A stretch of 64,000 nt of DNA from Anaerolineae bacterium (GTDB lineage Bacteria > Chloroflexota > Anaerolineae > Aggregatilineales > Ch27): positions 1 to 64,000 of the forward strand of contig JABLXG010000013.1 of the NCBI GenBank assembly GCA_013178165.1, read 5' to 3'. The notes below the pieces were generated by a model, which had not been told where the DNA came from, searched no databases, and saw only the letters and a program-made list of their open reading frames with translations. Below, piece by piece: positions 52,429 through 58,090 of the stretch. Position numbers and translations under genes: made by a program. The stretch's first letter is position 1. Each line of letters starts with the position of its first letter.

Positions 52429-53529
52429 TCACCCGACCGGCGCAGGGAGCAAACCCGTCTCCGTCCCAAAGGACGGTCCCTCCTGCAGGCATGGCCCCAG
52501 CTCACCCAGCCCGATCCGCCCCTGGAACAACTCGGTCGCGCAGTATTCCAGGTTATAGGAGAAGTCCCCGGTTGACCCCAGCTGGCTCAACACGGCCAGT
52601 TGCCCGCTCATCACCAACACCCCGATCACCATCAGGAACATACCGCTGACCAGTTCAATGGTGCGCATGTGTCGCTGCAGACGGCGCAGCAAGCCCTGCA
52701 TACGGTCCATCGCCAGCGCTGTCAGCAGGAATGGGACGCCCAACCCCAGCGAATAAGCCATGAGCAACATCCCGGCCTGACTGAGCGACCCGCCATTGGC
52801 GGCCATCGTCAGCACCGCCCCGTACACCGGGCCGATGCAGGGCGTCCATCCCGCCGAAAACACCACACCCATCAGCGCCGAACCGAAATAGCCCCGATCG
52901 TGGTGCGGCTGCATCTGCTGACGGGTATCCGCGTACAGCGCCAACTGCAACCGGCTCAGGGCGCGATCCCAGAAGTCGCCCGGACGGGTGAACGCCCCAC
53001 CCCACAGGAGCCATAACAGGTACAACCCGGCGCCGCCGATCATCACCACTGGCGTGACCAGCGCCCAGGCCAGAATCGCTGCCACGCCCAACTGGGCGAT
53101 GACTGTGATTAGCCGCCCCATCCCGCTGTTCATCGTTGCCCGCTGACCCAGCACCCAGCTGATAAAACGCGGCAGCACGCCCATCACATGCAGCCCAAAC
53201 AGGATGATGATCAGCCCGCCCAGCCGCGCCAGAATCACCTGCACTTCCACCACTGAACCGCGCAGGGCGAATGATCCAGCTGTCGTCAGCAGTCCGAAGA
53301 TGACAAAAACGGCGCTGAAGCCCATTACAAAGAACAGCCCATGCAGCAATGTGACAAAGCGGCCCGACCGGACAACGGTTCTGCTGCCCCGGCCCGCGCC
53401 AGCTGCCACGGTGACCGTCAATTGCCCACCCATATAGCCGACATATGCGGGCACCAGCGGTAGGACACAGGGCGAAACAAAGGACACCAGTCCCGCAATG
53501 AAAGCCAGTCCGATCGTGATATCTGTCAT
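52429..53529 (-). CDS. ccdA: CcdA-type thiol-disulfide electron transporter
   Basis: A 366-aa polytopic protein of the CcdA/DsbD family. The redox Cys residues are visible in SFVSPCVLPLVPAYVGYMGG and GWTPCIGPVYG. The family passes electrons from cytoplasmic thioredoxin to extracytoplasmic thiol proteins. The length is greater than typical CcdA (about 220-240) because of an insertion around residues 120-200 with additional helices. GGAG before the ATG. It is in an operon with a thioredoxin-like lipoprotein, a plausible electron acceptor. Confidence 0.92.
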   Translation of the reverse strand: MTDITIGLAFIAGLVSFVSPCVLPLVPAYVGYMGGQLTVTVAAGAGRGSRTVVRSGRFVTLLHGLFFVMGFSAVFVIFGLLTTAGSFALRGSVVEVQVILARLGGLIIILFGLHVMGVLPRFISWVLGQRATMNSGMGRLITVIAQLGVAAILAWALVTPVVMIGGAGLYLLWLLWGGAFTRPGDFWDRALSRLQLALYADTRQQMQPHHDRGYFGSALMGVVFSAGWTPCIGPVYGAVLTMAANGGSLSQAGMLLMAYSLGLGVPFLLTALAMDRMQGLLRRLQRHMRTIELVSGMFLMVIGVLVMSGQLAVLSQLGSTGDFSYNLEYCATELFQGRIGLGELGPCLQEGPSFGTETGLLPAPVG

Positions 53530-53631: not shown

Positions 53632-54540
53632 TCAAATCACCTCGATAGACGCATCCACCGGCAGCCAGCCGTACAGCCAGCGAGCCGCCCAGGGCGCCAC
53701 TTCCCAGCCAGGCCCCTCGCCAGTCTCGCCGAAACGGTGGTGCCAGTACACGCCATAGAGTAGCATGCCATTGCCTGACAGCACCCATGCAGCACCATAC
53801 CAGGGGTTGATCCGGGTGGCTGGTTGGCGGAGCAACCCGCCACCTGTTCCCGGACGCCCTGCCCGCATCCTCGGCGGGACGGCCGCCGAAAGGCGCAACA
53901 CATCGCGCCCGTCCTCCTGCGCGATAATCGCAGCGCGGGCGCGATCCAGCAGCAACCTTCTGGCTCGTGTCGTCCGGGCCGGCTCAGGCTCTGTGCAGAT
54001 GCTCCAGCGGGTCGCTGGCGTCCAGCCCAACGGAGTCGAGTCCGGGTGCTCGCTGAGGGCGTACCAGCCGCCATCGTCGCCCGGCAGTGCGTCCACAACC
54101 GCCAGGACGCCGCCATGGCCGATCCGCGTCACCAGCGGCGCAGCAGCGGATGCCCACCGGCGCACGGGGGCGACTGCCGCCACAACCACCGCCCATGCCG
54201 GCAATGCCGCCGGATGTGCCATATCCCCGGGTGCAGAGGATAGCATCGGCTGGATATCGTAACGGTGAACATAGCCATCCGGCACAGCATACCAACCGCC
54301 TTTAAGTCCCAGCAAAGGGGTAGTGCTATCCGGCCACAGATGGCGCACCATCGGAGCCGCACCATCCGGCGCCGATCGCACCACCACCGCTTTCAGCGCC
54401 CGCCCGGTCACCGGCTCAGGCAGGGGCGCATCCAGGCCCTCCACCGGCAGGGCCGCCGCCAGCAGAGTCGCGCCTGACAGGGACAGGAACGTTCGCCGGG
54501 TCAATGGCACACCCAAAACGCCTCGATCAATCGGTTTCAC
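53632..54540 (-). CDS. L,D-transpeptidase-like protein lacking catalytic motif
   Basis: A 302-aa protein with a Tat-type signal (RRTFLSLSG, hydrophobic core). The C-terminal part has the layout of a YkuD domain: DGRDVLRL, a WYGAAWVLSGNGMLLYG strand, YWHHRFGETG, and a WLYGWLPVD end. In active enzymes YWHxxFG is followed by a SHGCVNM-type motif; here the sequence reads GEGPGWEVAPWAARW, without Cys or the preceding His. The protein is thus probably a non-catalytic binding relative. GTG start overlaps the previous gene by 4 nt (GTGA). It is 102 bp from ccdA. Confidence 0.72.
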   Translation of the reverse strand: MKPIDRGVLGVPLTRRTFLSLSGATLLAAALPVEGLDAPLPEPVTGRALKAVVVRSAPDGAAPMVRHLWPDSTTPLLGLKGGWYAVPDGYVHRYDIQPMLSSAPGDMAHPAALPAWAVVVAAVAPVRRWASAAAPLVTRIGHGGVLAVVDALPGDDGGWYALSEHPDSTPLGWTPATRWSICTEPEPARTTRARRLLLDRARAAIIAQEDGRDVLRLSAAVPPRMRAGRPGTGGGLLRQPATRINPWYGAAWVLSGNGMLLYGVYWHHRFGETGEGPGWEVAPWAARWLYGWLPVDASIEVI

Positions 54541-55133
54541 GGTTCGCTCCCCACCAGGCGCGCCACCACCGCCCGGAGTTGTTCTTCCGGCTGGTAGCCA
54601 AACAACTCCTGCACAACCTCGCCTTCCGCATCCAGCAAGACAATGTGCGGGATAGCTGAGACGCCATACTGTATTGTCAGATCGCGCGTCGAAATGAGAT
54701 CGACGTTCAGGATGTGAAAATCCACCTGCCCGCTGTAGTCTTCCTCAAGCCGTCGCACGGACGGGCGCATCGCGTTGCAGGCGCTTCACCACCACGCCTG
54801 AAACTCGATGAAATGCGGCAGGCCGCGGAGAATGATGGCATACGGCGTTGCCAGCTGATCCTGCGTTGGCAGCAAACCAGCGAGCGCGGTCAGCGTCGCC
54901 AGTGGTCCGATCGGCGTTGGTGCGGCAGTGGGAAAGCTGATCCGGCTGGGAGCCGGGGTAGCCGTAGCTACTGCTTGAGGAGCAGGCGTGGGCAGTGCCG
55001 CTACCGCGCCACCCAGCGGCCCCTGATCCTGTGGCAGGACGGCCACCAGCGTCTGCACCACCCGGCCTGCCGGCGCGCAGGCCGTTAGCCCCAGCAGCGC
55101 GATACCTGCCAGCAAGAACACCAATCGCTTCAT
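54537..55133 (-). CDS. Thioredoxin-like lipoprotein with in-frame TGA (candidate selenoprotein)
   Basis: One continuous frame of 199 codons is interrupted only by TGA at 54786-54788 (codon 116). Upstream: lipobox LTAC (Cys19), Pro/Ala linker and a thioredoxin-like strand HFIEFQAWW. Downstream: SACNAMRPSVRRLEEDY and a VSAIPHIVLLD strand with cis-Pro162. The TGA replaces the first Cys of WCxxC, giving W-U-S-A-C. The downstream half fits the thioredoxin fold exactly in register, and the following gene overlaps its stop by 4 nt. If TGA is read as selenocysteine the product is 198 aa. The alternative is a nonsense mutation or sequence error. GGAGGAG lies 9 nt before the ATG. CcdA in the same operon would supply electrons. 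Sec insertion is an inference; the frame and motif are seen directly. Confidence 0.75.
54750..54788 (-). promoter_or_regulatory. Candidate bacterial SECIS hairpin
   Basis: After the TGA (54788-54786) the mRNA can form a 5-bp GC-rich stem CCGUC/GACGG (54764-54760 with 54754-54750) with a 5-nt loop CGUGC. The loop starts 27 nt behind the UGA and has G and U at positions 2-3. Known bacterial elements have an apical loop about 16-37 nt downstream, with a G among its first two bases. The fit is good but the stem is short, so this is a hypothesis. Confidence 0.45.
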
Positions 55134-55155
55134 GGTGAACTGCTCCTCCCCGCCG

Positions 55156-55659
55156 TCAGCGTTGAACGCGGGTCACCAGACGGCTGATCAGGAAGTCCGC
55201 CAGCCCACTGGTGTCGTCCAGGGCAAAGCAGGGCGCGCCATCCAGCGGCAGATCGCTGACGTAGGCCAGCACCTCCCCCGGTGCATTGAGCGGCTCCAGG
55301 CTGCGCGAGGCGCGTACCACCTCGATCCTGGGAAAGGCTGAATCGCGGTTGAAGCCCTCAGTCAGGATGATGTCCACATCCTGCACCTGCCCGGCCAGTT
55401 CCGCCAGGGAAAGTTCCCGCGCTAGGCGGCGGACGATCGCCATCTTGATCGGCGATACAATCATCACCGCTTCGGCCCCGGCCTCGTAATGCCGCCAGGT
55501 ATCCTTGCCGGGCTGGTCGATCGTGAAGTCCGGGTGAGCATGATGCTTGATGGTGGCCACCCGCAATCCGCGCGCCCGCAACGCCGGAATCAGCTTTTCC
55601 AGCAGCGTCGTCCGGCCTGAGCCAGACCGACCCACAATTCTGACCAGCGGTATCGTCAT
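55156..55659 (-). CDS. mobB: MobB-like molybdopterin-guanine dinucleotide adapter
   Basis: A 167-aa GTPase-like protein. MobB binds GTP and helps MobA make the guanine dinucleotide form of the Mo cofactor. Family blocks VATIKHHAHPDFTIDQPGKDTWRH-like region (two parts), GAEAVMIVSP and DVDIILTEGFN are present. The P-loop reads GRSGSGRTT, with Arg in the place of the invariant Lys, which would normally weaken nucleotide binding. Sits 22 bp before the thioredoxin-like gene and 29 bp behind the sulfite-oxidase-like gene. Confidence 0.87.
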   Translation of the reverse strand: MTIPLVRIVGRSGSGRTTLLEKLIPALRARGLRVATIKHHAHPDFTIDQPGKDTWRHYEAGAEAVMIVSPIKMAIVRRLARELSLAELAGQVQDVDIILTEGFNRDSAFPRIEVVRASRSLEPLNAPGEVLAYVSDLPLDGAPCFALDDTSGLADFLISRLVTRVQR

Positions 55660-55688
55660 GTACTATCGCCCCTGATCCTTGTGTGCTG

Positions 55689-56669
55689 TCAGCCTATCAC
55701 CCGTACCACAATCCAGTGCATGGGATCGACATCCCTGGAACCGCCTGCATTATGCTCCACACTATCGTTTAATCCTAATCCGGCCAGGCGATCCTGCGTC
55801 CGCCCTGTCCGATCGGTGGCCCGCACCACCAGCCGGTACTCGCCCGGCACCTCCGGAGTCCACAGGGTGTACCACTGTGTCCAGGCCAGCGGCGACTCCG
55901 GCGGGCGCAGGGTGACCGGCATCCAGTCACCGCCGTCCACGCTGAGCCCCACCGCCGCGATCCCCCGCAAGCCGGCAAACGCCACACCCTGGACTGCGAC
56001 AGGCTGGCCAACCTGAAGAACAGTATAGGGGCGCGGAGTCATGATCTGTGCGCCCGTCCTGACCGGCGGGATGCCCGCGCCAGAAGCCTGTCGCGCCTCG
56101 ATCGCAGTGATTCGGGTCAGCCACTTGACCGACGCCCCGCCATACAGATCGGGCACCAGTGCCCGCAGCGGGCCGCCGTGCTCCGGCGGCAACAGCGCGC
56201 CATTCATGTCATAAGCCAGGAGTGCCTGTGGCAAACCAGGTTCATCCAGCGCCACTGTCGCTGAATAGCCATCCGCCGCTTCAAACCGGAGATGAGTCGC
56301 TTCCGGCAGCAGATCGGCTTGCAGAAGGAGATCGGCCAGGCGGCAACCGCGCCAAGCTGCATTGCCGATCAGCCCGCCGCCCGGCGGATTCATGGCGCTC
56401 ACCAGCGTGAACACATCCCCGGCAGCGGGCTGCCTTCTGAGCGCCTCATAGCCCAGCTTGAGCGGACGGCGAACCAGACCGTCAAATACCAGCGCCCACG
56501 CCCGGCGATCGATGACCGGCAACCTACCGGTCACAGACTGTCGATAAAAGCGACCAATTGGCGTGATCACCGGCGAATCAAAGGTGATCCCGTCCGAGGC
56601 GGGTGGCTGCGGCCTGCGGCTGCCCGGCAACCGGCGCAAGAACGCGCGCCGCGATAGCATCTCCGGCAC
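55689..56669 (-). CDS. Sulfite oxidase-fold protein with Ser at Mo-ligand site
   Basis: A 326-aa protein with the Mo-binding fold (PGGGLIGNAAWRGCRLADLLLQA) and a C-terminal dimerisation domain of Ig type (VAVQGVAFAGLRGIAAVGLSVDGG). Active enzymes have Cys in a TLxCxxN motif as the Mo ligand; here the sequence is TLVSAMN, Ser91 in that position. SRRAFLRRL near the N-terminus looks like a twin-arginine motif, but no hydrophobic core follows, so export is doubtful. GTG start with GGGAG. 3 bp behind the SufE-like gene. Enzyme activity is therefore uncertain. Confidence 0.82.
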   Translation of the reverse strand: MPEMLSRRAFLRRLPGSRRPQPPASDGITFDSPVITPIGRFYRQSVTGRLPVIDRRAWALVFDGLVRRPLKLGYEALRRQPAAGDVFTLVSAMNPPGGGLIGNAAWRGCRLADLLLQADLLPEATHLRFEAADGYSATVALDEPGLPQALLAYDMNGALLPPEHGGPLRALVPDLYGGASVKWLTRITAIEARQASGAGIPPVRTGAQIMTPRPYTVLQVGQPVAVQGVAFAGLRGIAAVGLSVDGGDWMPVTLRPPESPLAWTQWYTLWTPEVPGEYRLVVRATDRTGRTQDRLAGLGLNDSVEHNAGGSRDVDPMHWIVVRVIG

Positions 56670-56672
56670 CTG

Positions 56673-57137
56673 TCACTCCCTGTCCCGTGGCACCTGTCGC
56701 GCCGCCAGGCGCTGTTGAGCCGCCGCGCGAACCCTGGCCACAATGCCCATCAGCCCCTGGCCCTTGCCCATGGCGATGTTCCGACCAAAGATATCCAGCA
56801 CGATGTCATCCGGGACGTGAGCCACCTGCTCCAGTGGCTGGCCGGAGAGCGTTTCGTCGAGGATCGCGGCTATTGCCCTGGCGGAAAGCCCCTGTGGATT
56901 TTCCACAGCGAAGTAGAACTGCAGCGTACCGTCCTCCCGGTCTTCCGCCCACACATAGGCATCTGACTCGCAGTAGTCGACATGGTTTTCCGACGGGTAC
57001 GGTCTGGTCGCGATGTGCTCCGGCACCGGCTGCAGGCGGTCGGCCAGTTCGATCAGATACTCTGCCCGCTCCGCGCGATCGGTCATCCAGCGGAAGTCTT
57101 CCAGCAGTTGCCTTAGCTTGTCAGGATACTCTGTCAT
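56673..57137 (-). CDS. SufE-like sulfur acceptor
   Basis: A 154-aa protein of the SufE family, which accepts persulfide sulfur from cysteine desulfurases. The acceptor Cys is in VDYCESDAYVWAE, in the place of the usual VxGCQSxVW, and FDEIPD-like and LMGIVARVRAAA regions fit the helical C-terminus. No sufS or sufBCD is nearby, so it may work with another sulfur carrier such as the sulfurtransferase upstream. ATG at 57137 chosen; a GTG at 57182 would add 15 residues. Confidence 0.83.
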   Translation of the reverse strand: MTEYPDKLRQLLEDFRWMTDRAERAEYLIELADRLQPVPEHIATRPYPSENHVDYCESDAYVWAEDREDGTLQFYFAVENPQGLSARAIAAILDETLSGQPLEQVAHVPDDIVLDIFGRNIAMGKGQGLMGIVARVRAAAQQRLAARQVPRDRE

Positions 57138-57226
57138 AGCTGCCCGTACGCTATGCAAGCGGTCTCGATGCACTGGACTCACCCGGCATCCGGCCAGGCG
57201 CAGCGCCGACTATAATCGACTTCGGC

Positions 57227-58090
<864 letters not shown>

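Follow-up and report, generated by a model that had tools for sequence, protein, structure and literature searches.

The gene at positions 54537 to 55133 on the minus strand of the window (the whole stretch of 64,000 nucleotides analysed here) very probably encodes a selenoprotein. Judged from the sequence, its UGA codon 116 would be decoded as selenocysteine (Sec), and the product would be a thiol-redox protein. The case for Sec decoding is built on the conservation of the UGA, the exchange of Sec and Cys among homologues, a hairpin downstream of the codon and a complete Sec machinery in the source genome; the reading as a lipid-anchored thioredoxin is based on a lipobox and a thioredoxin fold.

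A thioredoxin-domain lipoprotein gene with an internal TGA

The frame runs over 198 codons from the ATG at 55133 to the terminal stop TGA (54539-54537) and contains a single internal TGA at 54788-54786. With this codon read as Sec, the protein has 198 residues with Sec at position 116, the first active-site residue of a UxxC motif. A ribosome-binding site, GGGGAGGAG, can be read straight from the sequence at 55143-55151 (minus strand). A first-pass annotation of this DNA had reported the coordinates and the single frame with one TGA correctly, without giving the strand, and had also correctly placed the TGA in the position of the first active-site Cys, within W-W-TGA-S-A-C. The surroundings of residue 116 are FIEFQAWW-U-SACNAMRPS in the protein and FIEFQAWW-TGA-SACNAMRPSVRR around the codon itself; the resolving Cys of U-S-A-C, the invariant C119, is encoded at 54777-54779 (minus strand).

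The thioredoxin domain comprises residues 104-192 (54558-54824, minus strand) and was delineated with Pfam, AlphaFold and Foldseek. The region around and after the TGA matches the Pfam Thioredoxin profile PF00085 with an E-value of 1.1e-13 and 51.5 bits, well above the cut-off of 23.5 bits, and the same domain matches solved thioredoxins by sequence. The AlphaFold model has a pLDDT of 96-98 over residues 101-190, and in the Foldseek search with this predicted model the top matches were thioredoxins. The cis-Pro of the fold aligns as the invariant P162 (54648-54650, minus strand). A profile score above cut-off, the cis-Pro and the predicted fold thus together place the domain in the thioredoxin family, and the complete thioredoxin half after the TGA, with its cis-Pro in register, is as it had first been described.

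At the N-terminus a signal peptide ends at the lipobox L-T-A-C with Cys19 (55077-55088, minus strand), which marks the window copy as a lipoprotein by pattern. A lipobox-like site was present in 53 of the 56 TGA copies found among relatives, according to a pattern test and not a trained predictor. A long linker rich in Pro, Thr and Ala lies between Cys19 and the thioredoxin domain.

Gene neighbourhood and CcdA

The next gene downstream (53632-54540, minus strand) starts with a GTG that overlaps the stop of the selenoprotein gene in the sequence GTGA. This overlap of four nucleotides, already noticed in the first-pass annotation, is found in the source genome (G000) and in its nearest relative (G001). 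The encoded protein is exported with an RR-type signal and had no match in Pfam, NCBIfam or the PDB; its position beside the selenoprotein is conserved within the window's family only, and its C-terminus, inspected by eye, recalls L,D-transpeptidases lacking the catalytic Cys. The gene after it (52429-53529, minus strand) encodes a CcdA/DsbD-type transmembrane conduit for thiol reductant with the cysteines of SPCVLP and TPCIGP, matching the CcdA structure 5vkv with an E-value of 1.4e-33. A long insertion separates the two halves of this protein, which has two more cysteines in a C-terminal tail.

Upstream in the cluster are genes for MobB (55156-55659, minus strand) and for a molybdopterin oxidoreductase of the sulfite-oxidase type (55689-56669, minus strand), so that the order in the window's family is molybdopterin oxidoreductase, MobB, selenoprotein, exported protein and CcdA. 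The two upstream genes belong to a sulfur/molybdenum run at 55156-58090 (minus strand), which also encodes a rhodanese-type sulfurtransferase and a SufE-like protein. Oxidoreductase, selenoprotein, exported protein and CcdA occur together in all four family genomes with the gene (G000 to G003), and MobB was detected in three of these four; a fifth family genome, G004, which is 84% complete, is without such a copy.

Outside the window's family, the sampled loci had neither an adjoining CcdA gene nor any constant neighbour. The pairing with CcdA, put forward in the first-pass annotation, therefore holds for the window's family and not for the wider selenoprotein family as sampled, and a general CcdA-linked operon for the latter was rejected: the neighbours there include an amidase, glycosyltransferases and an AIRS-family protein. 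The AIRS-family gene (the superfamily of SelD) is located just downstream of the TGA thioredoxin in G020 (L058:7392-8483, plus strand).

The overlap raises the question whether the UGA serves mainly as a regulated stop, with a lipoprotein of 115 residues as the main product and read-through serving as a selenium switch for the coupled downstream genes including CcdA. The GTGA in G000 and G001 would indeed make downstream expression depend on read-through; however, among the genomes inspected this overlap was seen in the window's genus only, and elsewhere the neighbours are unrelated. Since domain, Sec and hairpin are conserved in spite of these unrelated neighbours, selection appears to keep the full-length protein, and a UGA acting mainly as a stop is very unlikely.

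The TGA is conserved and exchanges with Cys

Relatives were searched with the protein, and the codon aligned to residue 116 was read in the fetched loci. Within the order and class, this codon is TGA in 56 copies and TGC or TGT in 33, and the TGA copies are spread over many genera and families. An alignment of homologues had been suggested in the first-pass annotation; it places TGA in close as well as distant relatives and Cys in others, that is, the in-frame UGA has Cys homologues at the same position, as expected of a selenoprotein.

Sec and Cys versions occur within one genus (Sec in G020 and G063, Cys in G007 and G045) and even together in single genomes (G029, G034 and G044). In a quick domain tree, calculated with the column of residue 116 masked, at least 11 changes are needed to explain the distribution, and well-supported branches force three of them. 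The presence of the TGA form also goes along with selA: a match was found in 17 of 17 genomes of the order with a TGA copy versus seven of 17 with Cys copies only (hypergeometric p about 1.5e-4, with relatedness ignored and two ordinary thioredoxins left out of the tally). One of the 17 matches, that of G063, is a fragment that reaches 115 bits and falls short of the cut-off. In a genome lacking a selA match, one strand carries three related Cys-type thioredoxin genes within about 1.5 kb (L108, G010:C2:364335-365849).

A hairpin downstream of the TGA covaries in TGA copies

A bacterial SECIS-type hairpin of five base pairs, CCGUC-CGUGC-GACGG, is located at 54750-54764 (minus strand), with its loop at 54759-54755 and the invariant G at 54758. 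The first base of the stem is the 22nd nucleotide after the TGA; stem, CGUGC loop and distance are exactly as first annotated. For the comparison, the 60 nucleotides downstream were scanned for every 5-bp helix with a loop of 3-14 nucleotides, counting the T of the TGA as base 1. The helix pairing 25-29 with 35-39 ranked first; all five of its pairs form in 94% of 53 distinct TGA copies and in 3% of the 33 Cys copies.

Extended to six pairs, the hairpin has 95.9% of its cells paired in the TGA copies, with 72 cells changed on both sides and compensatory changes in five of the six pairs. The covariation score was 0.635, compared to a mean of 0.205 for shuffled alignments, none of which reached it (0 of 500), and slid registers scored at most 0.126. 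At the same position the Cys copies gave no signal (37.9% paired, score 0.127 versus 0.107). RNAalifold, run on the TGA copies, returned exactly this hairpin and nothing else. Bacterial SECIS elements are characterised by a hairpin just after the UGA whose small apical loop contains a guanosine (PMC1088965), and the TGA copies have both the hairpin and an invariant G (G31), which is the second base of the loop. The same register was found in a genome from another class of the phylum that had been held out from the derivation of the structure (G740), with W-U-P-N-C and a perfect 6-bp stem. Chance is no plausible explanation, since codon and hairpin are found at this place in dozens of species.

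In one close relative, G025, the stem forms only after a shift of register; one pair is missing in each of two others. Thermodynamic folding of the window copy by itself did not prefer the hairpin (z = +0.64) and gave a different minimum-energy structure, so the claim rests on the comparison. The folding proposed in the first-pass annotation thus has a divided outcome: covariation supports the hairpin and shows that it tracks the codon, whereas the single-sequence fold does not favour it. Three pairs on well-supported branches were available for comparing hairpin and codon independently of phylogeny; an average of 2.9 went in the expected direction, and three pairs are too few for significance. 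A single Cys copy has an intact hairpin, CCUGC-CGUGA-GCAGG (L095:1687-1740, G378, minus strand). It may be a remnant SECIS left after a change from Sec to Cys; remnants after Sec loss have been reported in other families (PMC1794560).

These comparisons also bear on the opposing view voiced in the first-pass annotation, that an error or a nonsense mutation could explain the TGA. On this view an ordinary WCxxC thioredoxin would have acquired the codon through a recent mutation, or through a mistake in sequencing or assembly. A change from TGC or TGT to TGA takes one base only, but 56 copies in independent assemblies, representing many genera and families, have TGA at the same codon, the frame after it stays open and conserved, and the hairpin covaries in TGA copies only. 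Error or mutation is contradicted by these observations and hardly credible.

The source genome encodes a complete Sec machinery

The source genome (4.19 Mb, 98.6% complete) contains all four genes that the first-pass annotation had suggested looking for. selC, the gene for tRNA-Sec, was found with 73.6 bits and called by ARAGORN as tRNA-SeC (tca); selB (353 bits), selA (545 bits) and selD (372 bits) all scored above their cut-offs. The selD gene has an in-frame TGA at the active-site position, SCAG-U-ASK (L018 around 1440-2436; G000:C32:61473-62408), and SelD of the source genome is thus itself a predicted selenoprotein.

Ten of the 11 genes inspected around the selenoprotein gene, itself included, end in TGA, showing that TGA is not generally reassigned; a genome-wide reassignment to Trp, Gly or Cys, under which the frame would also be open with TGA as an ordinary sense codon, is extremely improbable in view of these stops, of a tRNA-Sec with the anticodon UCA and of a TGA that replaces the active-site Cys only and is tied to the hairpin.

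A second TGA thioredoxin lipoprotein, with TTW-U-PTC, is encoded in the source genome (L053 4736-5236; G000:C1:290735-291235, plus strand; TGA at L053:4985). It has a hairpin of its own, GCCCAU-GGUUC-AUGGGC, and its neighbour on the opposite strand encodes a thioredoxin protein of the DUF255/DsbH type.

Proposed decoding and function

In the mechanism we propose, UGA 116 would be read by tRNA-Sec and SelB, guided by the hairpin of 5-6 bp with its apical-loop G, 22 to 36 nucleotides downstream within the coding sequence. The protein would be exported as a lipoprotein and work outside the cytoplasm as a thioredoxin whose active site is Sec-x-x-Cys. It would be a thiol-disulfide (selenenylsulfide) oxidoreductase that attacks with Sec116 and resolves with Cys119. 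CcdA, the product of the second gene downstream, would most likely keep the selenoprotein reduced in the window's family. For the direction of electron flow, the donor and the substrate we draw on the established biochemistry of thioredoxin, DsbD and CcdA, and the chances that this assignment is right are about even.

In the window's genus the UGA might, besides coding for Sec, act as a switch that senses selenium; we regard this as unlikely. If it did, translation would stop at residue 116 when selenium is short, less of the overlapping downstream gene and of CcdA would be translated, and the whole extracytoplasmic reductase module would be tied to the selenium supply.

Relation to known selenoproteins and thioredoxins

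Thioredoxins with UxxC are a kind of selenoprotein named in the main texts of two inventories (PMC13188914, PMC9312934), and UxxC selenoproteins of PF00085 are listed for Geobacter and Anaeromyxobacter in PMC1794560 and in the 2026 inventory PMC13188914. The protein described here has in common with them the fold, PF00085, Sec as the first residue of the active site, homologues with Cys and a SECIS within the gene; it differs in the lipobox and the long Pro/Thr-rich linker, which would place the domain outside the membrane, and in its distribution in Chloroflexota. With the thioredoxin equivalog TIGR01068 it scored 53.6 bits, below the cut-off of 96.8.

Other thiol-redox families are also related in part. 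The predicted thiol:disulfide interchange selenoprotein of PF13098 likewise has UxxC, and PF13098 is the second-best match of our protein, the listed examples being compared by description. The thioredoxin-like selenoprotein SaoT (NF040730) is also a UxxC thiol-redox protein but was not among the matches at E-values up to 1. ResA, CcmG and TlpA similarly have an anchored extracytoplasmic thioredoxin domain, and in the window's family CcdA is encoded nearby; however, this type has Cys instead of Sec, and the ResA model scored 25 against a cut-off of 170. For TsoB, a rhodanese/DsbD fusion-like selenoprotein (NF045694), the window selenoprotein scored 21.9 bits and the CcdA protein 34.9 bits against a cut-off of 805, each resembling parts of TsoB weakly; TsoB is fusion-like and has a UxxxxU motif (PMC13188914), whereas here the genes are separate and Sec is located in the thioredoxin motif.

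No NCBIfam model, those of selenoprotein families included, matched the window protein above its curated cut-off. The main texts of PMC13188914 and PMC9312934 are silent on Chloroflexi, lipoproteins and CcdA, and among literature titles and abstracts we found none describing a lipid-anchored subfamily of thioredoxin selenoproteins. This subfamily is apparently uncatalogued, as judged by the main texts of the inventories. What sets it apart is its lipid anchor, its occurrence across the class and the repeated exchange of Sec and Cys.

With this finding the phylum, which the main texts of the inventories searched do not discuss, would gain a widespread subfamily of lipid-anchored thioredoxin selenoproteins outside the cytoplasm. 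Annotation by the standard code would cut such genes short at the TGA. The 53 distinct covarying hairpins are an unusually clean model of the bacterial SECIS, and the exchange of Sec and Cys within a genus and within genomes, with gain or loss of the hairpin, makes the family a well-suited natural experiment on why Sec is retained.
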